Shown here in pieces: positions 6,342 to 52,689 of a DNA stretch of 64,000 bases. Numbering within the stretch: position 1 is the first letter of the stretch; each line of letters starts with the position of its first letter. Origin of the DNA: Streptomyces sp. SID9727 (GTDB lineage: Bacteria; Actinomycetota; Actinomycetes; Streptomycetales; Streptomycetaceae); the NCBI RefSeq assembly GCF_010550605.1, contig NZ_JAAGNI010000310.1, positions 1-64,000 of the forward strand. Direction: 5' to 3'. The notes below the pieces were generated by a model, which worked only from the letters and a program-made list of their open reading frames with translations, did not search any database and was not told the origin of the DNA. Made by a program: the position numbers and the translations under genes.

Positions 6342-8135
6342 TCAGGCGGCCGGGCCGAAGTCGCTCTGCTTCGGGGCGGCCTTGGCGATGGCGCGGGCGG
6401 TGATGCCCTTGGAGGCGAGGGCGGAGGCGGCGGAGAGCGCGTCGGCGCCGGGCTCGAGATACCAGGGGCGCAGGTCGAGCATGGCCGCGCGCATGCCGGT
6501 GGCGAACGCGAGCGCGGTGCCCTTGGGCAGCGCGCGGATGGCGTCGGCGGCCAGGATGCGTTCCTGCCGCATGGACACCGAGGTGGACTTGCCGGACTCC
6601 GAGGTCGAGGTGGAGGTCGTCTCGACATCGTGGTCGCCGATCAGCCTGCTCAGCTTGTCGGCGAAGTCCGGGTCGTCGATACCGCTGCCGATGACCTTGA
6701 TGGTGGAGGCTGACCACATGGCGTCCATGCCCGCGTCGCCCCACACTTTCTGGCCCTGCCGGTAGGACTGCAGGATGGTGATCGGGATGATGCCGCGCGA
6801 GCCCAAGTGGGAGTACAGGTCGGGAAGGTCTGAGATTTTGCAGACGTTGGCGGCCTCGTCGAGGATCGCGAGCATCGGCGGGTCCAGGCGTCCGCCGGCA
6901 CGCTCGGCCTGCGCGGTCGCGGCCCGCATCACCGAGTCGGCGCACGCGGCGATGAGCGCAGAGGCTCCGCCGCCGCCGTCCTTGGACAACAGGTAGAGGG
7001 TGTCCGTCGAGGTGACGAACGTCCTCGGCGTGAACTCCGGGACGTCCTTCTGCGGGGTCACCCAGGCGGCGATCTCGGTGTTGAGGAGAGCGGCGGCGTA
7101 CTGGCGGGCCGTCTCGTAGATGCCGTCCCTGGTTTCCGGCGGGCCTTCGACGGTGCCCTTGAGCTGGGATGCGACCGCGGCGAACTTGTGGTCGCGCAGG
7201 ATGTCGAGCGGGGTGCGGTCGGCGGGGAAGGCGAGCCAGGCCATCACATCGGTGATCGGCCGCTCGTCGAGGGCCGCGGCCAGGAACAGCTGCGAGAGGA
7301 TGTTGCTGCCGGCCTTGGACCAGAAGTCGCCCTGCTGGGACGCGTCCACGCTCGCGGCGAGGAAGTGCCCGGCCAGCCGCCCTGCGCCGTCGAGGGTCTT
7401 GGCATCGGCCAAGGGGTTCCACCACATGGCCCGCTCCGCGTGGGCGATCTGCTGCGGGTCCATCGACCAGGTCCGGCCGACGGCCGCCCGCGCATCCAAG
7501 GTCGCGGTGTAGGCATCGCCTGCGGCCTTGTTCGAGGTGAGCAGGACCGGGCCGGGCGCGTTGAGGATCGAGGGGATCGCCAGGCTGGTCGTCTTGCCGG
7601 ATCGGGGTGCCATGATCGCGACGGCGACGTCCTCATACCCCATGCGCACCTCGTGCTTGGTGCCCTGGAGGTTGCCGAGGAGGATGCCGGTGTCGGCTGC
7701 GTCGAGCTGCTTGGCGTCCTTCAAACTCGGCCGAAGGGAACGTGCCTTGGCGGTGATCGCCTTGGACAGCAGTGGCTCGATGTCCTTCTGCTTGGCCATG
7801 CCGGCGACGCGCTTCTTACGGCCGTTGCCGCCGCCCCGGTGCCGCTTGTAGAGCACGGCAGCGGTGATGCCGAGGGCAATGAGCACCGCGCCCGGCAGGA
7901 TCCGCGCGCCGAGGAGAAGGGACGTTTCTCCCAGGTCAGGCCATAGCTGATCGGGATGCAGCAGGGCTTGCACCGGCTGGTACGGGGCGCCGGGCCCTGC
8001 ATGCGTGGCCCAGGAGGTGAGATTGCCTCCGAGCCAGGCGAGGTTGGCCAAGGGCACCGCGACGGCGAGGATGACGCCCAGGGCGCGGAAGGCAAGGTCG
8101 TAGCCGTCGGTAGACGTGGAGTTGGGCTGAGGCAA
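6342..8135 (-). CDS. TraG/VirD4-type coupling protein (T4CP)
   Basis: A 597-residue membrane ATPase that would link the relaxase-DNA complex to the transfer channel. TTG 8135 is chosen because GGAA stands six bases upstream and there is no overlap with the upstream gene. Two transmembrane segments come first (LGVILAVAVPLANLAWLGG and ILPGAVLIALGITAAVLY), then Walker A IMAPRSGKTTS at about residue 178, Walker B PMLAILDEAANV near 425 and a C-terminal GSGIDDPDFADKLSRLIG region, the order seen in VirD4/TraG. The length is typical. It lies 25 kb from the secretion genes at 33-41 kb, which is unusual. Confidence 0.9.
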   Translation of the reverse strand: MPQPNSTSTDGYDLAFRALGVILAVAVPLANLAWLGGNLTSWATHAGPGAPYQPVQALLHPDQLWPDLGETSLLLGARILPGAVLIALGITAAVLYKRHRGGGNGRKKRVAGMAKQKDIEPLLSKAITAKARSLRPSLKDAKQLDAADTGILLGNLQGTKHEVRMGYEDVAVAIMAPRSGKTTSLAIPSILNAPGPVLLTSNKAAGDAYTATLDARAAVGRTWSMDPQQIAHAERAMWWNPLADAKTLDGAGRLAGHFLAASVDASQQGDFWSKAGSNILSQLFLAAALDERPITDVMAWLAFPADRTPLDILRDHKFAAVASQLKGTVEGPPETRDGIYETARQYAAALLNTEIAAWVTPQKDVPEFTPRTFVTSTDTLYLLSKDGGGGASALIAACADSVMRAATAQAERAGGRLDPPMLAILDEAANVCKISDLPDLYSHLGSRGIIPITILQSYRQGQKVWGDAGMDAMWSASTIKVIGSGIDDPDFADKLSRLIGDHDVETTSTSTSESGKSTSVSMRQERILAADAIRALPKGTALAFATGMRAAMLDLRPWYLEPGADALSAASALASKGITARAIAKAAPKQSDFGPAA

Positions 8136-8184
8136 GGGCTGTTCCAGGTACGAGGTAGGAAGAGGGCCGGCCGCGACGGGCCGG

Positions 8185-8958
8185 TCAGCGGATGCGGCCT
8201 GGCGCCGGTCCGGGCGGCGCGGGGGCAACGCCGGTCACGCGGTGGTGCCGCTCGGCGAGGGCGCTGATGCGTCGCTCCAGAGCGAAGGCGACGTCCGTCG
8301 CGGGGACGTGGCGGGTGTCCACGGTCATGCGGTCGCGGGCCCAGCCCGGGATGCGGCGCGGGTCGCGCCTGATGGGCGCGGGTTCTGCGAGCGCCTGCGT
8401 CACGGCGGCGATCAGGTGTAGGGGCGTGGTGCCGGTGAACACGGCTCGCCAGATCGTGGGCTCCACGACGAATGGCGTGGTCTCGATCAGCCACAGGTCG
8501 CTGCCGGGAGTTCCGACCCGCTCGACGCGGGCGATGCCGTCGGGGGCCGCGAGCCCGCCGAAGTGCCGGGGCGTTTCCCACCCCGCGTCCTGCAACGCAG
8601 TGAAGGGGTCGGGCGGAGCCGTGGGCGGCCCGGACGGGTCGATCACCGCGTCGGTGAACGCGGCGATGATCTCGACGGGGGTGCGGCTCTGGAAGGTGGC
8701 CGCCCAGGCGGGCTGATCCGCGCTACGCGCATGGCGGACGGTCCACCAGTCCGGATCATCCGGATCTCCGGGCGCCAGACGCAGTTGCGTGAGCTGGTCC
8801 GGGCTGGTGAGCAGAACGCGCGGTATCAGCGGGTCGTGGCCGTAGCTCCAGCCCGTAACCCGGTGCAGAGGCTGGGTGATCCAGCCCGGATCGCCGATGC
8901 CCGCGAGGTAGCGCGGGGCGATGAACGCCTGCTCGACGGTCTCGCTCATCTCCGTCAC
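8185..8958 (-). CDS. DUF317 family protein
   Basis: A 257-residue protein starting with GTG at 8958 (GTGA overlap with the upstream stop). An ATG at 8949 is also in frame but touches the GGAG. It contains FIAPRYLAGIGDPGWITQ and VTGWSYGHDP (DUF317 signature), TPVEIIAAFTDAV closing the first repeat, and TPLHLIAAVTQALAEP closing the second. The C-terminal tail is Pro/Arg-rich. It sits between the coupling-protein gene and a helical unknown. No function can be deduced beyond family membership. Confidence 0.85.
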   Translation of the reverse strand: MTEMSETVEQAFIAPRYLAGIGDPGWITQPLHRVTGWSYGHDPLIPRVLLTSPDQLTQLRLAPGDPDDPDWWTVRHARSADQPAWAATFQSRTPVEIIAAFTDAVIDPSGPPTAPPDPFTALQDAGWETPRHFGGLAAPDGIARVERVGTPGSDLWLIETTPFVVEPTIWRAVFTGTTPLHLIAAVTQALAEPAPIRRDPRRIPGWARDRMTVDTRHVPATDVAFALERRISALAERHHRVTGVAPAPPGPAPGRIR

Positions 8959-23376: not shown

Positions 23377-24408
23377 CTAGCGGGTGCGTCCTGTGGCGAC
23401 CGCTGCCGGTGGCTTCGGCGGCGTGGTGGCGGTGATGGCCGGGCGGGCGGTCTCCTCGACGGGGCTGACGGTGGCGGTGCGGATCACGTCGAGCAGGTCC
23501 TCGCCGGCTTCGAGCCACAGCGCCAGGGCTTCGTCCAAGCCGTCCGCCTCGGATCCGCTTCGGGTGCTGGCACCGGCGGGGGCTCGTGCGAGGAGGGTCT
23601 CGAAGCGGGTGAGGACGGCCGTCTCGCCGGCGGCCAGCGGTTTGGTGCCGCTCCGGCGGGTGGCCGCCAGCAGGTAGGGCGCGTGGGTGAGGAACCGGTC
23701 CAGTGCCGCGTCCATCTCCACGGCGTCCACGGTGCCGGGCTCGGCACTCTGCACCCAGTCGAGGTCCTGCTGGACTTCGCGGAGCCGGGACAGATGCACC
23801 AGCTCCTCGAACTCGGGCAGCAGACGCGAGCGCACGTCGGCAGCTGCCTCGCGGGCGGTGGCAGCGACCACGGTGCGTGGCCCGGCCCCGATCACATTCA
23901 GGTGGTCCGGTGACGGGAGCAGGGTGCCGACCACATACCGGCCGTCCCAGGGGCGTTCGGCCAGCAGAAGTTCGGTGCCGGCACCGTCGCGGAGGATCGC
24001 CGCTCCGGGGACGCGGTACGTGCCCAGCGTGGACAACACGGGACTGGCCTCCCACACCCAGTCCAGAAGGTGAGAGGGGACGGCGCGGTCCGGGTAGTGC
24101 TCGATGCTCACGTCCCACTCGCCGGGCAGGGCCGCGGCGACGGCGTGTGCAGTGTCGCCGAAGTAGGGCCGCTCACTGGTGATGACCTTGGCCTGGCAGT
24201 CCTGAGCGGTCTGGTGCAGCCGGGTGAGGGCCTCGCGTGCGCTGGCATGGTCAGCGAGGGACAGCCGATGGGCATCGCCCTCGTGCGCCCGGGTGAAGCC
24301 GGCCAACTCCAGCGCGGTCGTGGCCCACTGGTGCCGCTCCCCGCTGGGGAGCGCGACGATCGTGTTGCCGGAGCTGAGGTGGAGGGAGACGGCGGCGGAG
24401 GAAGTCAG
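23377..24408 (-). CDS. 'LPGTW' paralogous family protein
   Basis: About 343 residues from a CTG at 24408 that follows AAAGG by nine bases. Alignment with the paralogue at 25256 covers the extra N-terminus (WATTALELAGFTRAHEGD against ANQVLEAAGFSRQTGG), so the later TTG at 24306 is too short. Shared core: VITSERPYFGDTAHAVAAAL, PGEWDVSIEHYP, DGAGTELLLAERPWDGRYVV and RSRLLPEFEELVHL. The C-terminal part is helical with a Pro/Thr tail. The function is unknown. Confidence 0.72.
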   Translation of the reverse strand: MTSSAAVSLHLSSGNTIVALPSGERHQWATTALELAGFTRAHEGDAHRLSLADHASAREALTRLHQTAQDCQAKVITSERPYFGDTAHAVAAALPGEWDVSIEHYPDRAVPSHLLDWVWEASPVLSTLGTYRVPGAAILRDGAGTELLLAERPWDGRYVVGTLLPSPDHLNVIGAGPRTVVAATAREAAADVRSRLLPEFEELVHLSRLREVQQDLDWVQSAEPGTVDAVEMDAALDRFLTHAPYLLAATRRSGTKPLAAGETAVLTRFETLLARAPAGASTRSGSEADGLDEALALWLEAGEDLLDVIRTATVSPVEETARPAITATTPPKPPAAVATGRTR

Positions 24409-24438: not shown

Positions 24439-24789
24439 TCAGCGCTGTCGCCGCCGCGGGGTGCCGGCGGGCGCGGACTGTGCGGTCATGGCGGTCTTGG
24501 TGCGGCGTGGCGCTACCGGGGCGGATGCGGCGGGCGGGACGGCACGCAGGCCGGGGTCGAGGTCGACGCTGTAGCGGGCAGCGGCGAGCATTTCGGCGGC
24601 CCAGGTGGCGTGTTCGTTCTCCCAGGTGCGGCCCAGGTCGAACGGCAGCCGGATCCAGACGCCGCGCAAGGTGGGGTAGGTGTCAAACCCGGCTCGCTGA
24701 AGGACGCTCGCGGCGAAGCCGTCGACCGGGCCCTCGACGTCGACTTCGCCGCCCTGGCCGCGGGTGATGCGGATCGGCTCGTCGCTCAT
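24439..24789 (-). CDS. Conserved Streptomyces hypothetical protein
   Basis: A 116-residue protein starting with ATG at 24789 (ATGA overlap with the upstream stop). The segment ASVLQRAGFDTYPTLRGVWI followed by RLPFDLGRTWENEHATWAA and ARYSVDLDPGLR is a pattern I recall from many Streptomyces hypothetical proteins, and its beginning matches part of the 15203 gene. The tail is basic. The function is unknown. Confidence 0.72.
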   Translation of the reverse strand: MSDEPIRITRGQGGEVDVEGPVDGFAASVLQRAGFDTYPTLRGVWIRLPFDLGRTWENEHATWAAEMLAAARYSVDLDPGLRAVPPAASAPVAPRRTKTAMTAQSAPAGTPRRRQR

Positions 24790-25232
24790 CGACTCCGTCC
24801 CTTCCCGACCGTCTGGGTCTGACCGCCCACCGGCACGGAGCCGGGCTGGGGCAGGAACTCAGGGAGGGCGGTGGTCGGGGCGCCGCGCTGCTGCGGGGAT
24901 CGGGTGGCGGCTGCCTGCGCGATGCGGTTGCGGCGCTCCATCAGCCCGTTGCGCACGGCCGGCTGGGGCGGCGGGGCGCTGCGGCCGGGGTCGAGGCTGT
25001 AGTCGGCGTGGACTTCATAGCCGTGGCGCCGAAGATCGTGAACGGCCTGGCGGGTGCGGCGGATCCCGTCCTGCTCGGGGTTGGTGAGCCGGTACAGGCC
25101 CGGTGTGTCAGGTACGGGCTCGAACTGCTCGCGTACGAGGAACCAGTCGGCGAGGTGGGCGGGGATGTTCGCTGTGGCGGCGGCCACGAATCCGTGGTCG
25201 GGGTGAGCGCCGAAGCGGAAGTGGTCAGACAG
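24786..25232 (-). CDS. Hypothetical protein with a CTG start
   Basis: A 148-residue protein that reads SDHFRFGAHPDHGFVAA straight after a CTG at 25232, eight bases from AAGGA. The next in-frame ATG is more than 250 bases downstream, inside the conserved part, so CTG is the only sensible start. It continues with LYRLTNPEQDGIRRTRQAV and HDLRRHGYEVHADYSLDPG. It is probably the functional partner of the coupled downstream gene 24439, which shares the 'VDLDP'-type ending. The function is unknown. Confidence 0.7.
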   Translation of the reverse strand: MSDHFRFGAHPDHGFVAAATANIPAHLADWFLVREQFEPVPDTPGLYRLTNPEQDGIRRTRQAVHDLRRHGYEVHADYSLDPGRSAPPPQPAVRNGLMERRNRIAQAAATRSPQQRGAPTTALPEFLPQPGSVPVGGQTQTVGKGRSR

Positions 25233-25255: not shown

Positions 25256-26437
25256 TCAGCGTCGTGACGCTGGAGCTGGGGAGGCCGGTGGGAGCGCCGG
25301 AAGCGGATTTACCGTGGGCGGGGTGGCTGCGGACAGCGTGTGCGTCCCGGCCGGCTGTGCCGCCCGGACCTGCCGCTCGAATACCGCGGAGTCGGCGAGC
25401 CATGTCTGGATGGCCGGCAGTGCGGACATGCCGTACTCGGCGCGGACGTGGTGGTACTCGTGAGAGCGCAGTAGCCGCGGTATCGCGTGCAGATGGCTGC
25501 TCAGGGTGGTCTCTTCCTGCCGTACTGCTGCGTTGTCGGAGAGGGCGGCGCGCAGTCGTGTTAGTGCTGCTGCGTCGTCGGGCCATTCCGTGGTGGCTGG
25601 ACGGCACTGGGCGAGCAGCTGTGGCCCGTGTTCGAGCACGGTGCGGAAGGCGATCCAGGCGTGGTCGGCGAAGGCGCGTTCCATGCTGCCGATGAGGCGG
25701 CTGCTGAGCGGCACGCCGTCGGTGTAGCGGCCGGTCGCCTTGATGGTCTGGAGCGTGTTGTGCTCCTTGCGGATCCGGTCCAGGGCGAAGAGGACGGTGT
25801 TCAGGTCCCGGTGGTGCAGGGCGTGGCGCAAGGACGGCAGGAATGAGCTGGTGATGGTGGTCGCTGCGCGGTCCGGCTCAGCGGGAAGGACCATGGTCTT
25901 CGGCGTGGTGGGGTCATCGAGGACGTCTTCCTTCTCGTCGTCGGTGAGCGCGCCGATGAGGTAGCCGGCCGAGTGGTTGGGCCGTTCGATCAGCAGCAGC
26001 TCCGTGCCTTTTCCGTCCTTGAGTACGGACGCGAAGGGGATGCGGTGGTCCTGGAGGGCGCGATGGATTTCGCCGGCCTCCCAGAGCTGGTACCAGAGGT
26101 CGTCCTGCCACAGCGGGTAGCTGTAGAGCTCCAGCTGGGCGGTCCAGGTGCCGGGCAGCCGGGCGGCGATCTCGGTGCCGATGTCGCCGAGGTAGGGGCG
26201 GGTGCTGGTGACGAGGGCGACGCCGTGTTCGGTGGCGTGGGCCGCCAAGGCGCTGGCGGTGCGGCGGGCCGCCTGAGTATCGGCGAGCGAGACGGCGTAC
26301 GCGCCACCGGTCTGGCGGCTGAACCCGGCAGCTTCGAGAACCTGGTTGGCCTGCTTGTAGTTCTCGCCGGCTGCCATGGCGACGAGGCCGAGCGTGCGGC
26401 TGGTGCTGAGGGTGATCTCGGTGGAGGGGGTGGGCAT
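25256..26437 (-). CDS. 'LPGTW' paralogous family protein
   Basis: A 393-residue protein. ATG 26437 is used; a TTG directly before it is an alternative. N-terminal part: LEAAGFSRQTGGAYAVSLAD and VTSTRPYLGDIGTEIAARL, then the family core PGTWTAQLELYSYP, QLWEAGEIHRAL, GKGTELLLIERPNHSAGYLI and SSFLPSLRHALHH. The longer helical C-terminus is shared in outline with the 23377 gene. The function is unknown. Confidence 0.74.
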   Translation of the reverse strand: MPTPSTEITLSTSRTLGLVAMAAGENYKQANQVLEAAGFSRQTGGAYAVSLADTQAARRTASALAAHATEHGVALVTSTRPYLGDIGTEIAARLPGTWTAQLELYSYPLWQDDLWYQLWEAGEIHRALQDHRIPFASVLKDGKGTELLLIERPNHSAGYLIGALTDDEKEDVLDDPTTPKTMVLPAEPDRAATTITSSFLPSLRHALHHRDLNTVLFALDRIRKEHNTLQTIKATGRYTDGVPLSSRLIGSMERAFADHAWIAFRTVLEHGPQLLAQCRPATTEWPDDAAALTRLRAALSDNAAVRQEETTLSSHLHAIPRLLRSHEYHHVRAEYGMSALPAIQTWLADSAVFERQVRAAQPAGTHTLSAATPPTVNPLPALPPASPAPASRR

Positions 26438-26489: not shown

Positions 26490-27296
26490 TCAGCGGGTCT
26501 TCGGGGTGCGCTTGGGCTCGAGGCTGCGGGCGGGTTCGGCGGGTGATGGCCGCGCTGCGGGAGGCCGAGGCGACGGGACGTGCTGGATGTTCACCAGCGG
26601 CACGACGGCTTTGGGAAACGGGAACGCCGTGGAGCGCAGGATGGGCCGCGGATCGAGGGTCTTGGCGACGACGGCATGCATGAGGAAGTCGGGCGCCTGC
26701 TGGGTGAACGAGATGTCCCACAGGTGACCGAGGTCGTCCGGGGAGGCGGCCACATGCCAGGCGATGGCAGCGTCGCCGTGGATAGGCGGTGCCGGGGAGT
26801 CCTGCGGTCGGCCGATCACTGCTGCCTGTCCGTCGCGTGAGATGAATCCGGAGAGTCCAGAGGCGTCGAAGGGACTCCAGGCGTCGATGTCGACCAGCAG
26901 CTCGAACGGGCCGGGCTCGGTGCCGATTCCGTAGACGACGTGATCCGGATCGGCTTCCAGCTCGGCTGCCAGGGTGCCCAGGAGCGTGGCGACGAACTCG
27001 ACCGGCACGGCGCCGCTGACACTGGTGCGCCATCGCTCGGCTGCGTCCTCGTCGCTACGGGCCGAGATCACCAGGTGGGGGCGTAGCCCCGCGGCCGTCT
27101 CGTCGTGGCGGATGGTGACGCGCCGGCAGGGACTGGTAACGGTCAACGACGAGTTGTCCGTCGCCGCACTCCACCCCGTCTCCTCGGCGAAGATGTCCAG
27201 GAAGTGGTGGTGAGTGGTGGGGAGGCTGGCGGCCAGGTAGCGGGGAGAGATGAGGACCTTCTCCGGCGAGCGGTCTTGAGCGGGGGTGTCGGGCAT
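26490..27296 (-). CDS. DUF317 family protein, divergent
   Basis: A 268-residue protein starting with ATG at 27296 after AAAGG. It opens with VLISPRYLAASLPTTHHHFL and EETGWSAATD, a DUF317 start with an altered glycine region. The first repeat ends VPVEFVATLLGTLAAEL and the second APDFLMHAVVAKTLDPRP. It is acidic apart from a basic Pro/Arg tail. It is the most divergent minus-strand copy in the window. Confidence 0.78.
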   Translation of the reverse strand: MPDTPAQDRSPEKVLISPRYLAASLPTTHHHFLDIFAEETGWSAATDNSSLTVTSPCRRVTIRHDETAAGLRPHLVISARSDEDAAERWRTSVSGAVPVEFVATLLGTLAAELEADPDHVVYGIGTEPGPFELLVDIDAWSPFDASGLSGFISRDGQAAVIGRPQDSPAPPIHGDAAIAWHVAASPDDLGHLWDISFTQQAPDFLMHAVVAKTLDPRPILRSTAFPFPKAVVPLVNIQHVPSPRPPAARPSPAEPARSLEPKRTPKTR

Positions 27297-27340: not shown

Positions 27341-28111
27341 CTACACGGAGGGGGAAGCGGCATCGCGTAGTGATGAGGACGCGTCGCGCAGGCTGATGCC
27401 AAATCGGTGTGCGAAGGCCCGCGCCCTTGCCTCCAGCTGGTCGTATGAGTCCTGCGCTGTCATCTGCCCGGGATGCTTGCGGTAGCGGTAGACCGGCACG
27501 GGCAGCACGATGCCCGGGGCGAGGCAAGTGACGGCGAGAGTGCAGTAGTCCTCTCCCTGGACGAGCCCGCCCATCGGAGCCGCGCGCACCAGGTCGGTGC
27601 GGGCCAGGAGGGTGGTCGGGCCGAGCGGGATGGTGTCGGCCGGGTCGTTCCAGTACCGCCACACGTCCCCGGCCTCGTGCCGACCCGGCGGCGTCGGGGG
27701 CCGCCACAGGGTCGTGGCCCCGTCGGGGTGGAGGTCTTGGCTGTACCCGGCGCACCAGCCCACCCCGGTCGCCTCCAGGGCGCGCAGTCGCAGCGCCATG
27801 GCGTCGTCGCAGAACTCATCGTCATCATCGGCCCAGTTCAGATACTCGGTCCGCACTTCCGTGAGCGCGAAGTTCCTGGCGCAGGCCGCGCCGACCGGGC
27901 GCGGCAGGGTGAGGGTGCGCACGCGCGGGTCGGCGGTGAGAGCGGCGGGAAGGCGGGCAGGGTCGGCGCCATCGAGGGCGACGATGGCCTCCCACGGCGC
28001 GCTCTGGCGGCACAGGCTGGCGTGCATGGCGGTGAAGAACGCGAGGCGATCCGAGCGGAGTTGGGTGGCGATGACCACGGTGATCTTCGGGTGCGAGTGC
28101 GGGGACAGCAT
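27341..28111 (-). CDS. Family 2-like glycosyltransferase
   Basis: A 256-residue protein starting with ATG at 28111 after GGAGAAC. The N-terminal nucleotide-binding half (ITVVIATQLRSDRLAFFTAM and ALDGADPARLPA) and the acidic ADDDDEFCDDAMALRLRALE segment, the DxD motif, are those of a GT-A glycosyltransferase. No transmembrane segment is seen, so it should act in the cytoplasm. It may modify a surface polymer or a small molecule. The neighbouring genes do not name the substrate. Confidence 0.82.
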   Translation of the reverse strand: MLSPHSHPKITVVIATQLRSDRLAFFTAMHASLCRQSAPWEAIVALDGADPARLPAALTADPRVRTLTLPRPVGAACARNFALTEVRTEYLNWADDDDEFCDDAMALRLRALEATGVGWCAGYSQDLHPDGATTLWRPPTPPGRHEAGDVWRYWNDPADTIPLGPTTLLARTDLVRAAPMGGLVQGEDYCTLAVTCLAPGIVLPVPVYRYRKHPGQMTAQDSYDQLEARARAFAHRFGISLRDASSSLRDAASPSV

Positions 28112-28159: not shown

Positions 28160-28732
28160 CTAGCGGCGGGTGGTCTTGCGGGGTGCTGGTGCTGGTACGG
28201 CGGTGGCCAGGCGTGGGGCCGTTCGCGGCGCAACGATCGGAGCGGGCGTGTCCGGGTGCCACGCACTCGGATTCGTCGTGACTCGGCTGCGTGGGTCGGT
28301 GTCCCACGCGACGACGGGACCGCGGTCGTACGCCTGCAGGGCGATCACCTCGATGCCGTGTGGGTGCAGGACATACGCCCACTCCTCGGCGCCGATGCCG
28401 TCCTGCGTGACCAGAGTTCGCTCGTCCGGCGGGCCGCCCACGCAGATCACGTTGGTCATGTCTATCTGCCGGCTGGGGAAGTCCTCGCCCCCGGTCAGGG
28501 ACCGGCGCAGTGCGGCGGGGGCGCCGTCGAGGAGATCGGTGCCCAGCTCGTCCCAACCATGAGGCACGTCGTCGATCAGGTGGCGGGCCATGGCCTCCAC
28601 GTCACCGGCGAACCGGTACTGGCAGGCGGCCAGGAGGAGCGGCAGCTTGTTGTCAGGGGTGCCGTCGAAGTGGACGTGCACCCCGGTGAATCCGTCGGGA
28701 GTGGGGCGGGCGATGGCCGCGTTGGTGGACAG
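28160..28732 (-). CDS. Paralogous hypothetical protein, CTG start
   Basis: A 190-residue protein. CTG 28732 lies six bases after AGGAG and begins STNAAIARPTPDGFTGVHVH. The adjacent paralogue at 28761 begins SNRSVIARPTSTGYAGTYVH after its own CTG, so the N-terminus is conserved and the later GTG (28681) is too short. Shared core: LPLLLAACQYRFAGDVEAMA, LLDGAPAALRRSL and YVLHPHGIEVIALQAYDRGP. The last 30 residues are Pro/Arg-rich. The function is unknown. Confidence 0.72.
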   Translation of the reverse strand: MSTNAAIARPTPDGFTGVHVHFDGTPDNKLPLLLAACQYRFAGDVEAMARHLIDDVPHGWDELGTDLLDGAPAALRRSLTGGEDFPSRQIDMTNVICVGGPPDERTLVTQDGIGAEEWAYVLHPHGIEVIALQAYDRGPVVAWDTDPRSRVTTNPSAWHPDTPAPIVAPRTAPRLATAVPAPAPRKTTRR

Positions 28733-28760
28733 ATCGGTCTCCTAAGAAGCCGAGGCGGGG

Positions 28761-29321
28761 TCAGTGCGTGCGAGGGCGCGTTGTGGGGCGTTCGGCGGGC
28801 TGGGCCGGGGACGAGGTGCGTGGGGCGACTTGGGGTGGTGTCGTGGCCGGGATGGGAAGGCCGGACTTCCACAGGCAGGCGGTGTCGCGGAACCGCGCGC
28901 GGGGATCAGCGCTCCATGCGACGATCGGGCCGCGTTCTACGCCGGGCGTGCTGATCACTTCGATGCCTTGAGGGTGGAGGACGTAGCCCCAGTTCAATCG
29001 GGACGACGTCCGCTCCGTGTAGACCGGCGGCGGGTGGATCGGATGCGGCGGGTATGGACGGCCGGGGTCGTCGCGGCCAGCACTCAGGTGCTGGCGCAGG
29101 GCATCGGGAGCGCCGTCCAGGAGTTCGGTGCCGATGTAGGACCAGCCGTCAGGAGCGCTGTCGACGAGGTAGGCGGTCAGGGCCTCGGTGTTGCCGGCGA
29201 ACCGGTACTGGTGTGCGGCGAGGAGCAGGGGCAGGTGATAGCTGGGCTCGCCGTTCCAGTGGACGTACGTGCCGGCGTAGCCGGTGGAGGTGGGGCGGGC
29301 GATGACAGAGCGATTGGACAG
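28761..29321 (-). CDS. Paralogous hypothetical protein, CTG start
   Basis: A 186-residue protein, tandem paralogue of the 28160 gene. CTG 29321 stands five bases after GGAAGG. No ATG, GTG or TTG occurs in frame until about 29000, more than 100 residues into the conserved part. Shared core: LPLLLAAHQYRFAGNTEALT, LLDGAPDALRQHL and YVLHPQGIEVISTPGVERGP. A Pro-rich linker lies between the halves. The function is unknown. Confidence 0.72.
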   Translation of the reverse strand: MSNRSVIARPTSTGYAGTYVHWNGEPSYHLPLLLAAHQYRFAGNTEALTAYLVDSAPDGWSYIGTELLDGAPDALRQHLSAGRDDPGRPYPPHPIHPPPVYTERTSSRLNWGYVLHPQGIEVISTPGVERGPIVAWSADPRARFRDTACLWKSGLPIPATTPPQVAPRTSSPAQPAERPTTRPRTH

Positions 29322-29345: not shown

Positions 29346-29858
29346 TCAGCGGGCGGCTCGGCGGACAGCGGTTGGGGCAGGAACCCTCGCGACGGTGGGC
29401 GGGGGCTGCGCGGGTGCCGACCGGTTCGTGCGCCGGTAGGTGCTGGCCAGGTGGTCCTCGCCGAGGTAGACGAGTTGATCACCGAGTGCGGACAGCTCCT
29501 CGGCGTGCTGGCGGTAGCGTGCCGCGATGCTCGGTTCCTGGTTGTGCTCGCACCATTCGGCTGCGGTCTCCAGGAATGTGTGCAGCTCGCTCAGGCCACT
29601 GCGTCCGTCGCCGAGGACGGCCTGTGCAACGGTGTTCAACTCGGCTGCTGTGCGGACCCGGTAGAGATGGCGGGTCCAGTCGCTGATGCTCTGACCAGGC
29701 TCGCCGTCGGGGAGCGCGGTGCTGAACTTCCGTGCGTCGTGGGCCGCCCAGCGATGCAGGTCGTCGGCGGTCGGCCGGTCGTCCCGATGGGCCGTGATCT
29801 GCTCGGTGGTGCGGCCGACGTTGTCGTACAGCTCGAAGTCGGGGTGCGGCAGGGACAC
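29346..29858 (-). CDS. Hypothetical helical protein
   Basis: A 170-residue protein starting with GTG at 29858 after GGAGGCGAACC. It reads SLPHPDFELYDNVGRTTEQI and then helical segments TAAELNTVAQAVLGDGRSGL and ELHTFLETAAEWCEHNQEPS, with a basic tail. No motif was recognised. It lies between the lipoprotein gene and the CTG-start pair. Confidence 0.65.
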   Translation of the reverse strand: MSLPHPDFELYDNVGRTTEQITAHRDDRPTADDLHRWAAHDARKFSTALPDGEPGQSISDWTRHLYRVRTAAELNTVAQAVLGDGRSGLSELHTFLETAAEWCEHNQEPSIAARYRQHAEELSALGDQLVYLGEDHLASTYRRTNRSAPAQPPPTVARVPAPTAVRRAAR

Positions 29859-29875: not shown

Positions 29876-30937
29876 TTACGCGCGGTCCGTGGCTGCGGAG
29901 CCGACGGGCGGGCCGGAGGCGTCGGTGCGGGCACACGTGTAGCCGATCAGGCGAGACGGGGCGGCCTTCGCGGGCACGGTGGCGGCATCGGCGCAGACGA
30001 ACGTGTACGTCACCGAGGTGCGCGGGATGCCGTGGAGCCAGGCGTTGTCGTCCTTGTCCGGGTTGATCTGCAGCCCGGAGTGCGCGACGGCATCGGTTTG
30101 CGTGTGGGTGTGGGCGAACAGGACCAGTGCACTGCCGTCGCTGGTCTTCAGCGCGTAGGCGTCCTTGAAACGGTTGGTACCGCCGGCGAAGACGGTGGTG
30201 CCCAACTTCCCGTACTTGCGGGTGGTTTTGTCGTGGACCTTGATCTGCTGCTTGCTGGCCTTGGTCGGGTCGAAGACCTTGGTGCCGGTGTTCGTCCCGC
30301 CGGTCGAGAAGTTGTCGATCACCGCAGTGCGCAGCACGTTGGCGTCGGCGGCGAGCTGCTTGTTGCCGGTGGCGGCGACCGCGGTGGCGTAGCCGTCCTT
30401 GTCGAGGGCAATGTGTGGCAGCGTCGTGCTGTCGAGGTCGACGACGGAGACCAGCTCCCACCGCTTGTCCTTCGGCTGCTCGGCGAAAAGGGCGATGCGG
30501 CTGGGGTCCTTGTCCTTGTCCTTGTCGCTGGAGAGCGCGGCGGCGAACCAGCGGCCCTGGCCGGCTGTGAAGCGCGGAATGTACAGCTTGGCGCTGGCGG
30601 TGTCGTACGACCAGGGCTTGTACGGCTTGCGGTCGGCCTTGGGCAGGCCCTCGGTCTCGGTGTAGTCGGAGACGGACATCGCGTACGTCGGCCCGTCCTC
30701 GACGGTGTCGAGCAGGGCGCGGTCGCGCTGTGCGTTGGCCTTGTTATTGATCTTCGAGTAGTTGCTGATAACGGCGTGAGCCTGGTTCGCGCTGAGCGCG
30801 GGCACCGGCTTCGGCGCGGCGGTTGGGGTGGCGTTCTTCTTCGCGGACGGTGCCTCGTCGCTGCTGCACGCGGTGACGGCCCCGGTGAGTAGGGCGGCAC
30901 AGACGAGCAGGGGAAGGGCACGGCGGGCGGTGTGGAT
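29876..30937 (-). CDS. Secreted lipoprotein, ATC start
   Basis: A 353-residue protein. ATC 30937, seven bases after GGAG, gives a normal lipoprotein signal: HTARRALPLLVCAALLTGAV followed by TACSS, with Cys at the lipobox. The only other start, a CTG, would remove the basic n-region. The mature part is Lys/Asp/Thr-rich and probably a two-domain beta-rich surface protein (RWFAAALSSDKDKDKDPSR; VFAGGTNRFKDAYALKTSDG). No enzyme motif. It may be a conjugation- or exclusion-related surface protein, which is only a guess. Confidence 0.75.
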   Translation of the reverse strand: MHTARRALPLLVCAALLTGAVTACSSDEAPSAKKNATPTAAPKPVPALSANQAHAVISNYSKINNKANAQRDRALLDTVEDGPTYAMSVSDYTETEGLPKADRKPYKPWSYDTASAKLYIPRFTAGQGRWFAAALSSDKDKDKDPSRIALFAEQPKDKRWELVSVVDLDSTTLPHIALDKDGYATAVAATGNKQLAADANVLRTAVIDNFSTGGTNTGTKVFDPTKASKQQIKVHDKTTRKYGKLGTTVFAGGTNRFKDAYALKTSDGSALVLFAHTHTQTDAVAHSGLQINPDKDDNAWLHGIPRTSVTYTFVCADAATVPAKAAPSRLIGYTCARTDASGPPVGSAATDRA

Positions 30938-30969: not shown

Positions 30970-31527
30970 TCAGCGGCTGCGGGCGGTGGCTGGGCGGGGC
31001 GGGGTGACAGGGATGGTGCTGGTCGTACTGGGGCTGCGGTTCGGTGCCGGCGCTGCGGCGAGCCGATCGGCCTGCTGATGGAGTCGACCGCCGGCCTGGT
31101 TCAGCCGGTGGCGGGTGCTGTCGATCCGGGCGCACAGCCGGGAGCGGGCAGAGGCGATGGCCGTGGCGCGCTGCGCGGAGCGGGGAAGGGAGCCGAGCTG
31201 GTGGAGGGCGCCGGCGTGGGCCACGGCTTCCCCGAGGTCGGCCAGGGCGTACCCCAGGGCGCCCACCGTGAGCGTGAGCTGGGCGACCGTGCGGCGGGTG
31301 ATGTCGGCTTCAGGGCCGCGACCACGTCGGACGGTGCGCGCTGCGAAAGCTGCCGCGGTCGTGAGGTGGGTGATCAGTCCGGCGACGTCGCGGACGCGGT
31401 CGTCGAGGTCGTCGAGGTTGTCGACGCCGGAGTGCACCGAGTCGGTGAGCGGCAGCTCGTCGGCCGCGTTGTGGATGCGTTCGGCCAGCGAATGCAGCTG
31501 ACTGACCTGGTCGTACGGGAAGGACAG
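30970..31527 (-). CDS. Hypothetical coiled-coil-like protein, CTG start
   Basis: A 185-residue protein. CTG 31527 lies five bases after AGGAG and gives SFPYDQVSQLHSLAERIHNA. There is no canonical start in the first 20 codons. It is almost wholly helical (VRDVAGLITHLTTAAAFAAR and ARSRLCARIDSTRHRLNQAG), with a Thr/Pro-rich end. It could be a coiled-coil structural protein. The family is not recognised. Confidence 0.65.
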   Translation of the reverse strand: MSFPYDQVSQLHSLAERIHNAADELPLTDSVHSGVDNLDDLDDRVRDVAGLITHLTTAAAFAARTVRRGRGPEADITRRTVAQLTLTVGALGYALADLGEAVAHAGALHQLGSLPRSAQRATAIASARSRLCARIDSTRHRLNQAGGRLHQQADRLAAAPAPNRSPSTTSTIPVTPPRPATARSR

Positions 31528-31562: not shown

Positions 31563-32378
31563 TCAGCGAGTTCGGGGGCCTGGACGGCCGGGCGCCGGTA
31601 CGCCAGGAGCAGGTGTCCCTGGAGGCTGAGGCAACTGTGCTCTCGCGGCAGACGTTCCATGCGGTGGTGCGCGGCGGCAGGGAGCCTCGCGCGGGGGTGA
31701 GGTTCTCGGTCCAGCGTTGGGAGCGCTGGGGTGGGTGCCGCCGAGGAGGGAGGGGGTGCCGTCGAGTTCGTCGAGCCACTTGAGGAGCTTCGGCAGGTTC
31801 TTGTCGGGCCCGTACGCGAGGTAGGTGCCGTCGGCGCTGTCGCAGCCGAACCACTCGGCGATCCCAAGACGAGCCCGGGAATTGACGCGGCCCATGTGCA
31901 CGCTCTTGCCGCGGGCCTTCGCCTCGCGGGCCAGCCGTTCGGCGACGGGGCCGAGTTTCCATTCGGTCGATCCGGCCAGGAACAGGACGTCGATGCTGTC
32001 CCAGGGCAGCAACTCGGGTTGATCGCAGCCGTCCTGTGCTGCGTAGGCCGCGGGGACGCCCAGTTCACGAATGCGGGCCAGCCACGGCAGCGACTCGGTG
32101 AGGGTGCCGGCGGCGTCGAACGGCTGGTCCGGGGCGAGCGCCCACAGGCAGCGATCCGGCCCGTACCTCTCGACGGTCCGCGACAGCCAGGCGAACCATG
32201 CCTCGGTGCCGGGCCAGTAGCGGCCCTTGCCGTCGCTGCCGAACTTGGAGTTGTCGCAGGCGTACAGGGCGCCTTCGGGGATGCGGCTGCCTTGCGCCGG
32301 GGTGGTCATACAGCCGAGGCGTCCCGCGCTCATCGCGGCCCGAATGTCAGGCCCCGAGGGGGTGCCGAGGTAGCGCAG
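31563..32378 (-). CDS. DpdA/TGT-like protein (7-deazaguanine transferase family), CTG start
   Basis: About 271 residues. CTG 32378 is six bases after GGAGG and gives RYLGTPSGPDIRAAMSAGRL, the usual N-terminus of these phage-type proteins as I recall them, so the later ATG (32333) is too short. Other landmarks: YACDNSKFGSDGKGRYWPG, ALAPDQPFD, VLFLAGSTEWKLGP, VHMGRVNSRARL and GCDSADGTYLAYGPD. This resembles the TIM-barrel tRNA-guanine transglycosylase/DpdA2-like proteins of actinophages, which exchange guanine for a 7-deazaguanine. Substrate (DNA or tRNA) is not shown. The Pro-rich tail is extra. Confidence 0.7.
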   Translation of the reverse strand: MRYLGTPSGPDIRAAMSAGRLGCMTTPAQGSRIPEGALYACDNSKFGSDGKGRYWPGTEAWFAWLSRTVERYGPDRCLWALAPDQPFDAAGTLTESLPWLARIRELGVPAAYAAQDGCDQPELLPWDSIDVLFLAGSTEWKLGPVAERLAREAKARGKSVHMGRVNSRARLGIAEWFGCDSADGTYLAYGPDKNLPKLLKWLDELDGTPSLLGGTHPSAPNAGPRTSPPREAPCRRAPPHGTSAARAQLPQPPGTPAPGVPAPGRPGPRTR

Positions 32379-33260: not shown

Positions 33261-34775
33261 TCAGTGCATGCGGGCGTCGGTGTCGAAGAGTGCCAACTCG
33301 TGCGGGTGCAGGAGGTGTTGCACGATGAAGCTGCGCCCCGCGACCTTCCAGAGCCCGCGTCCGCGGTTGAGGTGGGAGATCGCGTCGGCTTCCACGGACG
33401 TGAGTCCCAGCAGGGCTGCGGCAGCGTGGAGCTGGTCGGTCTCCTGGCGGTAGATGATGCGGGTGGAGCAGTCGGCGAGCAGGCCCTCGGCGAGTGCCCG
33501 GCCGCGGGAGCCGGCGTCTCCCGCGGTGAGCAGGTCGCTGAGCCGGTGGATGACCATGAGGTTGGCGATGCCCAGGCCGCGGCTGAGCTTCCACTGGGAC
33601 TGCATGCGCGCGAGGAGGCCGGGGTGGCGCATCAGGCGCCATGCCTCGTCGTAGACGATCCAGCGCCGACCGCCGTTCGGGTCGGAGAGCGCGGATTCCA
33701 TCCACGCGGAGGCGCAGGTCATGGCGAGCACCAGAGCGGTGTCGTCGCCCGATCCGCCCAGGCGTGACAGGTCGATGGTCAGCATGGGCGAGTTGGGGTC
33801 GAAGGCCACGGTGCTGGGGGCGTCGAACATGCCGGCCAGGTCGCCGTGCACCAAGCGGCGCATGGCGTGGGCCAGGTCGCGCGAGGCGTCGCCGAGGCGG
33901 CCGGACATGACGCCGCCGACCCGGTCGAGTTCGTCGGGGTTGTTGAGGGTGGCGGCGATGTCGCCGAGCAACGGTGTGCGTCCGCTCGCGGTGGCGCGGG
34001 CGACGACGGCGTCCAGGGCGACATCGAGGCCGGTGTGCTCCATCGGCAGCAGGTCCCGCCCGAGGACGGTGCGGGCCAGCGAGCCGAGCAGCAGCAGACG
34101 GCGCTTGCGGATTTCGCCAGCCCAGTCGGCTTCGGAGACGCTGTTGGGGCGCGGTGCGGCGTCCAGCGGATTGAGCTTGCCGGGCAGCCCGGGGCCGAGG
34201 GCGATGGAGGTACCGCCCAACGCCTGTGCCACGGGCGTCCACTCGCCCTTCGGATCACACGGGACATAGACGCGGTAGCCGAAAGCGATCGACCGCAGCG
34301 CGAAGCTCTTGGCCAGCGCTGACTTGCCCTGCCCGATCACCCCGGCCAACAGCACGTTCGGGTTGGTGAAGCCTTCGATCTTGCCGTACAGCGCGAACGG
34401 ATCGAAGCAGAAGGACGCTTCGGCGTGCACGTCGCGGCCGATGTAGATGCCCTCGGCGCCCAGCCCGCCCTCGGCGAGGAACGGGTACGCGCCGCTCGCG
34501 GTGGCGGTGGTCATGCGGTGGGCAGGCAGCTTGATCTTGTTGTTGCGGGAGGACGCGGGGCCGGGGCGTCCGGCCGGCGAGAAGAGCGGCGCCGGCATCT
34601 GGTTCTCGGCTGCGCCGGAGCCGCTGGCATGGGCGGCAGCTTCGGTGCGGGCCTTCGCGGCGGCCTCGGCGAGTTGGCGGCGGGCGGCCTTGCGCGAGGC
34701 GCGGTCGGTGCCGTGCGGGGTGAACAGCGGAGAGGCGGAGGCGCGGCGGGCACGACGCGAGGGCCGATGGCTCAT
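33261..34775 (-). CDS. VirB4-type ATPase, C-terminal domain protein
   Basis: A 504-residue cytoplasmic ATPase of the type IV secretion apparatus, starting with ATG at 34775. It has a basic N-terminus, then Walker A LLAGVIGQGKSALAKSF, the VirB4-like SIALGPGLPGKLNPLD, Walker B RRWIVYDEAWRLMRHP and a C-terminal LADCSTRIIYRQETDQL. At about 500 residues it is shorter than full VirB4 (about 800). The missing N-terminal domain seems to be in the protein at 35912. It should energise pilus assembly and DNA transfer. Confidence 0.88.
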   Translation of the reverse strand: MSHRPSRRARRASASPLFTPHGTDRASRKAARRQLAEAAAKARTEAAAHASGSGAAENQMPAPLFSPAGRPGPASSRNNKIKLPAHRMTTATASGAYPFLAEGGLGAEGIYIGRDVHAEASFCFDPFALYGKIEGFTNPNVLLAGVIGQGKSALAKSFALRSIAFGYRVYVPCDPKGEWTPVAQALGGTSIALGPGLPGKLNPLDAAPRPNSVSEADWAGEIRKRRLLLLGSLARTVLGRDLLPMEHTGLDVALDAVVARATASGRTPLLGDIAATLNNPDELDRVGGVMSGRLGDASRDLAHAMRRLVHGDLAGMFDAPSTVAFDPNSPMLTIDLSRLGGSGDDTALVLAMTCASAWMESALSDPNGGRRWIVYDEAWRLMRHPGLLARMQSQWKLSRGLGIANLMVIHRLSDLLTAGDAGSRGRALAEGLLADCSTRIIYRQETDQLHAAAALLGLTSVEADAISHLNRGRGLWKVAGRSFIVQHLLHPHELALFDTDARMH

Positions 34776-37470: not shown

Positions 37471-38823
37471 CTACAGGCCGGTGGGCGGGGGCGGCGGAGC
37501 GCCGGTCCCGCTGGTGTCGGCCGAGTTCGGTGCCGGCGGGGCGCCCTGCGGCGGGGGCGTGGAGGCGCCGGCGCCGGGCTGTGACAGGAAGCCGCTGCCA
37601 CCGGTGGGCGCTGATGCGGAACCGTCGCCGCCCCCGGGTGCGCCGCCGACCTGGCCGCTGGTGTCGTCGCTGGGACTGGTCGGGGGTGGCTGGACGGCCT
37701 TCTCCAGACCGTTCTTGAGGCCGTCGCCTCCGGAACCCGGGGAGCTTTGGCTCTCCTGCCCACCGCTTCCCCCGGTGGGGTTGGCGGCGATGTCGCCGGG
37801 GAATCCGCCGCCGGCGGCCTCCGGTCCTGCGGCGCCCGCTCCGGCTGCTGCTCCGCCGGTTCCTGCGGTGGCAGCTGCGGCGGCGGCCTTGCGGCCCGCC
37901 TTCTCGGCGTGCTGCCGGGCGAGCTGAGCACCTGCGCCACCGGCGCGGTGGATCGATTCTCCGTCCGTGCCCTCGGCCGCCCAGTGGACAAATTTGAAGG
38001 TGGCGTACGGGCAGAGCAGCACCAGAACCATGACCACGATGCCTGCCATGACGTCGGCGAGGGCGCCCAGGCCGTCCTTGGCCTCGGTCTTGCCCATGGC
38101 GGCGATACCGAGGACGAAGATCACGGTCATCAGGAGCTTGCTGACGACGAGGGTGGCGGTGGCTTCGATCCAGCCGCGCCGCCAGCGGCGGGCGACCTCC
38201 CAGCCTCCGCCGGCCCCGGCGAAGATCGCGAGCGTGACCATGACGAGGATGCCGACCTTGCGGACCATCATCACGCACCAGTACATGAACGCGCCGATTG
38301 CGGCGCCGAGCCCGGCGAACACGGCGACGAGCCAGCCCAGACCGGCCAGTGAGGGGATCTGGGAGACCTTCACGATGCGGCGCACGGCTGTTTCGATGGA
38401 CAGGTGTGATGCTTTGAACAGACCGGCCGACAACGCGTCGACCACCTCGATGGCGACGGTGGTCAGGGCGATGGCGGCGAACGCGAAGATCACGCCGCTG
38501 GCGGTGCCGGTGAACGCCTGGCTGAGAGCCTGCCCGTCACGTTTGACGGCGGCCCGGATGAGCTGCGCACAGAATGTGCCGACGAGGATGACCAGGCCGA
38601 TCGGCAGCAGCATCTCGTAGTTGTCGCGGAACCATCCGGCATTCAGGTCGACTTTGGTGGTGGCGTCGACTGCCTTGGCGGCCAGGTCGGCTGCGGCGGC
38701 GGCGAGTTCGCCGGCGCTCTTGGCCATCCAGTCGCCGATGGCCTTGCCGGGGTCGGAGGCGAAGTCGACGGCCTCGCCGACGGCGCAGAGTTTGTCCGCT
38801 ACGGGAAAGTCGCAGAAACCCAA
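37471..38823 (-). CDS. VirB6/TrbL-like polytopic membrane protein
   Basis: A 450-residue protein starting with TTG at 38823. After a soluble N-terminus come about six hydrophobic segments (MLLPIGLVILVGTFCAQLI; AGLGAAIGAFMYWCVMMVR; GILVMVTLAIFAGAGGGWEV; LLMTVIFVLGIAAMG; ADVMAGIVVMVLVLLCPYAT). The C-terminal 150 residues are a low-complexity Gly/Pro/Ala/Ser tail. This layout and the position in the cluster fit VirB6/TrbL, the inner-membrane channel subunit. The disordered tail is common in actinobacterial versions. Confidence 0.85.
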   Translation of the reverse strand: MGFCDFPVADKLCAVGEAVDFASDPGKAIGDWMAKSAGELAAAAADLAAKAVDATTKVDLNAGWFRDNYEMLLPIGLVILVGTFCAQLIRAAVKRDGQALSQAFTGTASGVIFAFAAIALTTVAIEVVDALSAGLFKASHLSIETAVRRIVKVSQIPSLAGLGWLVAVFAGLGAAIGAFMYWCVMMVRKVGILVMVTLAIFAGAGGGWEVARRWRRGWIEATATLVVSKLLMTVIFVLGIAAMGKTEAKDGLGALADVMAGIVVMVLVLLCPYATFKFVHWAAEGTDGESIHRAGGAGAQLARQHAEKAGRKAAAAAATAGTGGAAAGAGAAGPEAAGGGFPGDIAANPTGGSGGQESQSSPGSGGDGLKNGLEKAVQPPPTSPSDDTSGQVGGAPGGGDGSASAPTGGSGFLSQPGAGASTPPPQGAPPAPNSADTSGTGAPPPPPTGL

Positions 38824-38858
38824 GGGGAGTTGACCTCCTTATCGGTCGGTGAGGTGGG

Positions 38859-51393: not shown

Positions 51394-51444
51394 CGCCCGC
51401 CGCCTACATCAACTCCTATTGCCCTGCCACTGTTTGGAGCCTTG

Positions 51445-52689
51445 TTGTCCTCTCGCCCCGTCGTCCTGGTCGTCGCAGCCGCCGACATGGAGGCGCACGC
51501 GTATCGGGCCTATTGCCTTGAAAACGTCCGTGCCCACTACGACGTCGTCCTGATCTCCGGCGCCGAGCCGACCTGGGAGAAAGAGTTCGTCGTCGACTAC
51601 ACCGTCGCCGACCCCACCGACCAGGCGGCCCTGGCCGCGGCCGGGCACGCGCTCGCCGAGCGGCACGAGCTGGCCGGTGTGATGACGTGGACCGAGTGGT
51701 ACCTCGTGCCCGTCGCCCGTCTCGCCCGCCAGCTCGGCCTGCCCACGACGACTCCAGAAGCCCTCCAAGGCTGCCGCAACAAGCACACCTCCCGCACGCT
51801 ATTCGCCCGCCACGGGGTGCCCTCCGCCATCTCCGTGAGCGTGCGCACCGAGCAGGAGGCGGCCGACGCCGCCGCACTGATCGGCTACCCGGTCGTCCTC
51901 AAGCCTGCCGCCCACGCCGCGAGCATGGGCGTCATCCGCGTCGACAACGCCAGCGAACTGCCCGCCGCGTACGTCTTCGCCGCGCAGACCGCAGGCCACG
52001 GAGTGGAGAGCACCCAGGTCCTGGTCGAGGAGTACCTCGACGGGGAGGAGGTGAGTGTCGAGTGCGTCACCTTCCAGGGGCAGACCACCGTGGTCGCAGT
52101 CACCCGCAAGACCGTCGGGATGCCGCCCTTTTTCGAGGAGATGGCGCACGTAGTCGACGCGAGCGACCCGCTGCTCGCGACCGTGGCGCCGGTCGCCGTC
52201 GCGGCCCTCGACGCCGTCGGCGTCACCGACGGCGTCAGCCACGTCGAGATCCGCATCGTCGACGGCCGCCCGCGCCTGATCGAGGTCAACGCCCGCATCG
52301 CCGGCGACATGATCGGCCACCTCATCCATCTGGCCACCGGTGTCGACCTGGCCCGCGCCGCCGCCGACATCGCCTGCGGCGTGCTGCCCGACCTCACCCC
52401 AACACGCAGCCAGGCAGCGGCGATCCGGCTGATCTATCCCGCCTACTCCGGCACCCTCACCGAGCGCCGCCTGGACGCCGAGTTCACCGACCACGCCGAC
52501 TGGCTCGAGCGCGTCACCTTCCACCGCGACGCCGGCGACCGGCTCGTGCTGCCGCCGGACGGCGACATGTTCAGCGCCCGCATCGGCTACCTCATCACCA
52601 CCGGACCCAGCGCCAAGGTTGCGCAGGCCCGCTCCACCGAGGCGTACCGGCACCTGGCCGTCCAGGTCACCCCCGCTGAGATCGCCTGA
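51445..52689 (+). CDS. ATP-grasp ligase
   Basis: A 414-residue protein. TTG 51445, five bases after GGAG, is preferred to the TTG at 51442. It has the ATP-grasp pattern: TPEALQGCRNKHTSRTLFAR, YPVVLKPAAHAASMGVIRVD, VLVEEYLDGEEVSVECVTF and the metal-binding LIEVNARIAGDMIGHLI. It resembles the carboxylate-amine (dipeptide-type) ligases that join amino acids. With the MFS gene it could form a small biosynthesis and export unit. No substrate can be read from the sequence. Confidence 0.86.
   Translation: MSSRPVVLVVAAADMEAHAYRAYCLENVRAHYDVVLISGAEPTWEKEFVVDYTVADPTDQAALAAAGHALAERHELAGVMTWTEWYLVPVARLARQLGLPTTTPEALQGCRNKHTSRTLFARHGVPSAISVSVRTEQEAADAAALIGYPVVLKPAAHAASMGVIRVDNASELPAAYVFAAQTAGHGVESTQVLVEEYLDGEEVSVECVTFQGQTTVVAVTRKTVGMPPFFEEMAHVVDASDPLLATVAPVAVAALDAVGVTDGVSHVEIRIVDGRPRLIEVNARIAGDMIGHLIHLATGVDLARAAADIACGVLPDLTPTRSQAAAIRLIYPAYSGTLTERRLDAEFTDHADWLERVTFHRDAGDRLVLPPDGDMFSARIGYLITTGPSAKVAQARSTEAYRHLAVQVTPAEIA

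Follow-up and report, generated by a model that had tools for sequence, protein, structure and literature searches.

Probable CTG translation starts in two adjacent Streptomyces paralogues and disfavoured start codons in the surrounding accessory cassette

Locus and gene content

The window, i.e. the whole stretch of 64,000 nucleotides that was analyzed, belongs to a contig of 66,015 bases (G000:C257) in the 7.66-Mb draft genome of Streptomyces sp. SID9727; this contig need not be a plasmid. Two paralogous genes, A and B, are located in tandem on the minus strand (Table 1), share 49% identity and are the only copies of their family in this genome. At the start of gene A, an in-frame stop TAG (28744-28742), a Shine-Dalgarno sequence (SD) and six bases precede CTG, which is followed by STNAAIARPT; at the start of gene B, the stop of the upstream gene (29348-29346), the SD and five bases precede CTG and then SNRSVIARPT. 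The stop of the upstream gene lies 28 nt before the start of A and 24 nt before that of B.

Table 1. Features of the window, with start sites where these were read.
Feature	Positions	Strand	Start site and remarks
VirD4/TraG-like coupling protein	6342..8234		
g19, related to g16	23377..24408	-	possible CTG start 24408-24406
c7	24786..25232	-	predicted CTG start 25232-25230
g16	25256..26437		
DUF317 (SPDY) protein	26490..27296	-	ATG start
Family-2 glycosyltransferase	27341..28111	-	GGAG-AAC-ATG-CTG
Gene A	28160..28732	-	predicted CTG start 28732-28730; SD AGGAG 28743-28739; 189 residues after start
Gene B, paralogue of A	28761..29321	-	predicted CTG start 29321-29319; SD GGAAGG 29332-29327
c5, 'PDFELYDN' family	29346..29858	-	GTG start here; CTG, TTG or ATC in most homologues with an SD
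Lipoprotein, distantly SCO2278-like	29876..30937	-	predicted ATC start 30937-30935 after GGAG 30948-30945
c11	30970..31527	-	predicted CTG start 31527-31525 after AGGAG
PHROG 15826 match	31563..32309		
VirB4-like ATPase, upstream edge of cassette	33261..34775	-	ATG start
SCO6881-family protein	37471..38838		
ATP-grasp ligase-like ORF	51394..52689		

An earlier note on this DNA, made from the sequence alone, described two adjacent paralogues, each starting with CTG at a conserved N-terminus shortly after an SD, and this layout was confirmed. The N-terminal motif is indeed common to A and B, but the opening S-x-N given for it was wrong, as B reads S-N-R; the motif is S-x-x-x-x-I-A-R-P-T. Since an in-frame stop lies close upstream of the CTG in both genes, no ATG, GTG or TTG is available before it, and none was found between that stop and the CTG in either gene. 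The interval likewise contains no trace of a lost canonical codon, the loss of an upstream start by sequencing error being one way in which the note had expected that its claim could fail. Counting CTG as codon 0, the next canonical codon downstream is GTG at codon 17 in A and TTG at codon 108 in B, which agrees with the description of B as free of in-frame ATG, GTG and TTG for over 100 residues.

The VirB4-like ATPase upstream of A and B has profile scores under the curated cut-offs. Also upstream are an NlpC/P60 protein and a neighbour matching the SCO6881 family (NF047967) at 582.5 bits against a cut-off of 325; the coupling protein is located farther off. SCO6881-family and VirB4-like genes are likewise found in the type-IV-secretion-like clusters SCO6871-6884 / cmdABCDEF of S. 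coelicolor (PMC2782261). The glycosyltransferase matched family 2 (PF00535) with 39.7 bits (gathering score 23.3), and the lipoprotein is a relative rather than a member of the SCO2278 family (NF053531; 92 bits against a cut-off of 210). Among 61 loci, each cut at 5 kb, at least 44 have a VirB4-like ORF as a neighbour, at least 33 the lipoprotein and at least 18 c5. The best explanation is that A and B belong to a Streptomyces accessory cassette beside type-IV-secretion-like genes.

Profiles of defence systems found no system among the scanned cassette proteins; the sole match, of the VirB4-like ATPase to mad8, was taken as a shared ATPase fold. No IF3 gene was found among the proteins scanned, and no tRNA carried by the element that might read CUG was found in the window. 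One ORF inside the cassette matched the phage family PHROG 15826 (E 8.6e-80), and elsewhere in the window an ATP-grasp ligase-like ORF had its best profile match at E 3.7e-62, under the curated cut-off.

Predicted protein of gene A

The AlphaFold2 model of A, built with 47 aligned rows, has a mean pLDDT of 90.9 and places strands at residues 4-10 and 13-19, so that the first beta-strand is predicted to begin at residue 4 after the CTG. No family in Pfam or NCBIfam was matched by A or B at E 0.1 or better, and no match in a PDB fold search reached E 0.001 (the best was VIA Z 2.6). The sole fold match of note is weak, to an uncharacterised phage protein (BFVD A0A6J5NAV2; E 1.2e-6, TM 0.50/0.61, 17% identity). 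The PHROG 25001 profile matched weakly (E 0.013) and in residues 1-33 only, and tblastn with A found no match among 50,697 phage records.

Start codons of homologues

A homologue of A/B is present in 59 of 392 genomes of the same genus (own genome counted), and a family-level search gave matches in 25 of 200 genomes. The scan of named genomes yielded 75 loci; their source records belong to Streptomyces and Kitasatospora, apart from a few that carry broader names. Among 72,556 plasmid records one carries a homologue. The codon aligned with the CTG was read in 102 distinct start regions (loci L001-L107) and was CTG in 80, TTG in 14, ATG in 3, ATC in 3 and GTG in 2, i.e. non-canonical (CTG or ATC) in 83 and canonical in 19. 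The genome sets overlap, and since merging was limited to identical start regions, near-identical rows persist among the 102. Nine match rows without the motif were skipped; eight of these are partial copies or pieces lying in another frame, and the ninth (L100) has a variant motif and was later read as TTG, outside the 102.

CTC was observed in none of the 102 start regions. Within the genes of the family the leucine codons are CTG 802, CTC 794, CTT 41, TTG 39, CTA 22 and TTA 1, and as CTC is about as common there as CTG, an ordinary leucine position would show many CTC codons (Fisher P 1.4e-23 for CTG against CTC at the start position and internally, relatedness of rows ignored). Read from the alignment, the codons at this position are the set of start codons, not the set of leucine codons. 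A G-rich SD block is found at -10 to -7 throughout the homologue set. Among the 83 rows with CTG or ATC, the interval from the upstream stop to the start is free of canonical codons in 51, while 32 have some in-frame canonical codon upstream. Downstream, 81 of the rows reach their next canonical codon only after 10 codons or more.

In seven distant homologues, for which longer stretches were read, exactly the codon that is CTG in A and B is ATG (2), GTG (2) or TTG (3). This is the comparison that the earlier note had proposed, and no homologue starting inside the conserved region, which would have spoken against CTG initiation, was found. All seven lie in stretches without a listed match to the VirB4-like ATPase, the lipoprotein, c5 or the glycosyltransferase (two of these stretches are short, 7.9 and 9.8 kb), and the start is CTG in all three distant-search stretches with VirB4. 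The rule is not absolute, since the five A/B rows with ATG or GTG include cassette members, e.g. L028, whose lipoprotein reads ATC. Taken together, the canonical codons of the distant homologues, the start-codon set, the constant SD distance and the position of beta-strand 1 strongly support CTG initiation, and A and B very probably begin at CTG, not ATG. The family would accordingly have a start codon other than ATG, GTG or TTG that is conserved across Streptomyces species.

On a tree of 89 of the 102 rows (partial, short and identical proteins excluded), the start codon changed in 8 steps at position 1, none at position 2 and 1 at position 3. Fourfold sites averaged 14.7 steps, with 11 of 88 at 8 or fewer, which points to only moderate purifying selection on position 1; the average first codon position had 8.2. 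GC3 dips after the start at codons 2-3 (0.59 and 0.48) and averages 0.82 in codons 1-8, compared with 0.90 in codons 9-59, but this is weak evidence since codon 42 also dips (0.52).

In the plasmid record (L107, NZ_CP050437.1) the annotated starts of both A copies, at 9998 and 15049, fall 51 nt inside the CTG. The (incomplete) table lists no CDS for one c7 copy, and in one copy the c5 frame continues open into A. The A homologues of L101, L103, L104 and L106 have internal frame breaks and are decaying copies or sequencing errors.

Start codons in the neighbouring families

The earlier note presented A and B as two odd genes and spoke of Streptomyces plasmids. Both genes are real, but the trait is family-wide and common to unrelated neighbouring families. 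In the window, the conserved N-termini of c11, c7 and g19 also follow a CTG that has an SD-like stretch before it, and that of the lipoprotein follows ATC. In the SD-anchored census of neighbours, matches of at least 55 bits beginning within 20 residues of the query start were taken and the codon was sought 4-9 nt after the SD. Glycosyltransferase homologues had CTG in 57 of 65 (TTG 1, ATG 1, other 4, no SD 2), lipoprotein homologues (n=34) ATC in 26, ATT in 5, CTG in 2 and another codon in 1, and c5 homologues (n=45) CTG in 13, TTG in 12, ATC in 7, GTG in 1 and other codons in 4, with no SD in 8. Homologues of c7, read by motif position (n=59), had TTG in 28, CTG in 26 and ATG in 3, the motif being absent in 2. 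The close homologues of c11 in L032 and L033 also have CTG; this set holds only 9 rows, 5 of them without an SD. For g19 (n=55) the codons were ATG 16, GTG 10, CTG 8 and other 5, with no SD in 16, and since the paralogue g16 is also mixed, g19 is the least certain rare-start member.

Several other genes of the region have conventional starts. For the VirB4-like ATPase the motif was located in 20 of 44 cluster members, every one of them with ATG; g7, g15 and phrog15826 have mostly ATG where an aligned start was listed, and several cassette genes of the window start with ATG. In the glycosyltransferase of the window, an ATG (28111-28106 for the two codons) directly precedes the CTG of its relatives, which survives as codon 2; this ATG is 3 nt from the SD, the relatives' CTG 6 nt, and the gene may have acquired its canonical start recently.

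A census without choice of families covered 339 distinct ORFs on the cassette strand of loci L032-L106, with 38 stretches of 20 kb (760 kb, 509 ORFs) from the complete genome G013 as control. In the control, enrichment after an SD near the coding onset was 3.89 for ATG, 2.50 for GTG and 1.54 for TTG, and CTG (0.67; 24 after an SD, 391 not), ATC (0.41) and CTC (0.38) were not enriched. The slight excess of CTG over CTC there (24 against 13 after an SD) means that a few CTG starts elsewhere are possible. In the cassette, CTG reached 4.61 (85 after an SD, 289 not) and ATC 3.53 (55 and 244), beside ATT 4.88, TTG 4.29, ATG 3.95 and CTC 0.80. The Fisher P values for cassette against control (CTG 2.8e-12, ATC 3.6e-8) ignore relatedness and are descriptive only, since the same homologues recur among the cassette ORFs. 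CTG (2.58), ATC (3.05) and GTC (3.19) also had raised values, with small counts, in the other 102 distinct ORFs of these loci. Automatic start calling in the cassette region of G013 gave candidates for 7 of 31 ORFs, including one CTG and one ATC; as the coding onset was often misplaced and few starts were named, alignments were relied on. The N-terminal columns assigned automatically to control clusters could not be relied on.

Sequence comparison shows the position of the start, that it is conserved and that such starts are concentrated in the cassette, and several unrelated cassette families conserve the bacterially disfavoured start codons CTG, ATC and ATT.

Translation signals

The SD strength of the CTG members of A/B is -7.11 kcal/mol, compared with -6.84 for ATG and -5.81 for GTG genes of the control. 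As these SDs are no weaker than those of the control genes, the start codon is likely rate-limiting. Within the family, ATG/GTG members showed no clear compensation in SD strength (P 0.15, 5 genes). The RNA structure at the start of A is not more stable than that of shuffled sequences (z 0.74), and a scan for sigma-70 promoters found none.

Interpretation

Non-canonical starts of this type have precedents. In S. coelicolor, sigR is reported to have a GTC start repressed by IF3, and canonical codons in its place overproduce SigR; infC itself is given as starting with ATT in E. coli and ATC in Streptomyces (Feeney et al. 2017, PMC5472188). The infC of the genome studied here (L148 1251-1253) reads GAGGAGGATCC-ATC; its ATC follows GAGGAGG, the arrangement already known in Streptomyces. 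Like A and B, sigR is a Streptomyces gene with a conserved non-canonical start and a good SD, invisible to gene finders, and like the cassette lipoprotein, infC has ATC behind a strong SD. However, sigR is one regulatory gene with GTC and infC is essential and autoregulating, whereas the cassette has CTG, ATC and ATT in several adjacent unrelated families and its proposed response to IF3 is drawn from these parallels. In M. smegmatis leadered starts, ATT was reported as selected (9.8%) and CTG as not selected (0.03%) (PMC4633059).

The pattern suggests a common brake on translation of the cassette genes, and by analogy with sigR and infC we infer that IF3 exerts it. An ordinary SD would recruit the ribosome to the cassette starts, IF3 would destabilize initiation complexes on CUG, AUC and AUU and keep output low, and output would rise when IF3 discrimination is reduced. 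Start-codon identity may in this way set the cassette genes jointly, as an IF3-discriminated group. The preferred reading, to which a probability of about 0.6 is assigned, is that A and B translated from CTG, the conservation of disfavoured starts in the cassette and its gating by IF3 are properties of one gene group. The stronger proposal of a translational regulon defined by start codon, in which the whole cassette would open only once initiation becomes less accurate (at low IF3, under stress or at a developmental stage), is tentative and rather less likely to hold than to fail. TTG is reported not to be discriminated by IF3 and, in Streptomyces, to be a stronger start than either ATG or GTG (PMC5472188), so the TTG members (14 among the 102 A/B starts, 28 among the 59 of c7) should escape IF3, which counts against such gating, as do the five A/B members with ATG or GTG. 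Further points against the preferred reading are the only moderate conservation of start-codon position 1, the raised CTG, ATC and GTC values in the other ORFs of the cassette loci, the slight CTG excess in the control and the ATG starts of several cassette genes.

The same observations may be read as fixed low expression, in which rare starts hold output down for reasons of dosage or toxicity with no conditional control by IF3. In E. coli, output from CUG is reported to be 0.86% of that from AUG (PMC11497404), and with ordinary SDs the weakness most obviously lies in the start codon; the TTG members would nevertheless start strongly (PMC5472188), and the ATG/GTG members show no clear compensation by SD strength, so that this account is somewhat unlikely, if the most serious competitor. 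It is improbable that the starts are instead reached by reinitiation or coupling from the upstream gene, their identity being unimportant and CTG, ATC and TTG persisting by drift. The closeness of the upstream stops and the near-average rate of change at position 1 would fit, but only start-type codons occur there, CTC being absent, and the codon is specific to each family (ATC/ATT in the lipoprotein, CTG in the glycosyltransferase) and not random.

A still less probable alternative is that CTG and ATC starts are common throughout Streptomyces genomes and missed by gene finders, which assume ATG, GTG or TTG (PMC5472188), the cassette being nothing special. The slight excess of CTG over CTC in the control leans this way; the lack of CTG and ATC enrichment after an SD in the 509 control ORFs, set against their enrichment in the cassette, and the ATG in all 20 readable VirB4-like neighbours lean the other. 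Least probable is a start elsewhere, with the CTG as an ordinary leucine codon. A GTG is available at codon 17 of A and upstream canonical codons exist in the 32 rows mentioned above, but B offers nothing until codon 108, the other 51 rows have no upstream candidate, distant homologues have ATG or GTG at the CTG position, and CTC is absent from it. A start at the GTG of A would, in the model, also delete beta-strand 1 and cut strand 2.

Significance

CUG is reported to account for about 0.024% of bacterial start codons (PMC11497404), and in 36 groups of genomes a switch from AUG to CUG was reported for only 2 of 61,358 AUG starts (PMC5622118). With CUG so rare and weak, a family in which 80 of 102 starts are CTG, beside ATC/ATT and CTG families, is far outside the norm. 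IF3-type non-canonical starts were known before; here they are apparently cassette-wide. Among the papers listed in full-text searches of open-licence literature, none dealt with a Streptomyces family that starts at CTG or with a cassette sharing non-canonical starts. The two misplaced A annotations in the sole plasmid record expose a systematic annotation error. Feeney et al. describe the totality of IF3-repressed genes as unknown (PMC5472188), and the cassette is a ready set of candidates for genes under this repression. If the tentative regulon proposal is true, unrelated genes beside conjugation-like machinery would have jointly kept start codons that IF3 rejects.
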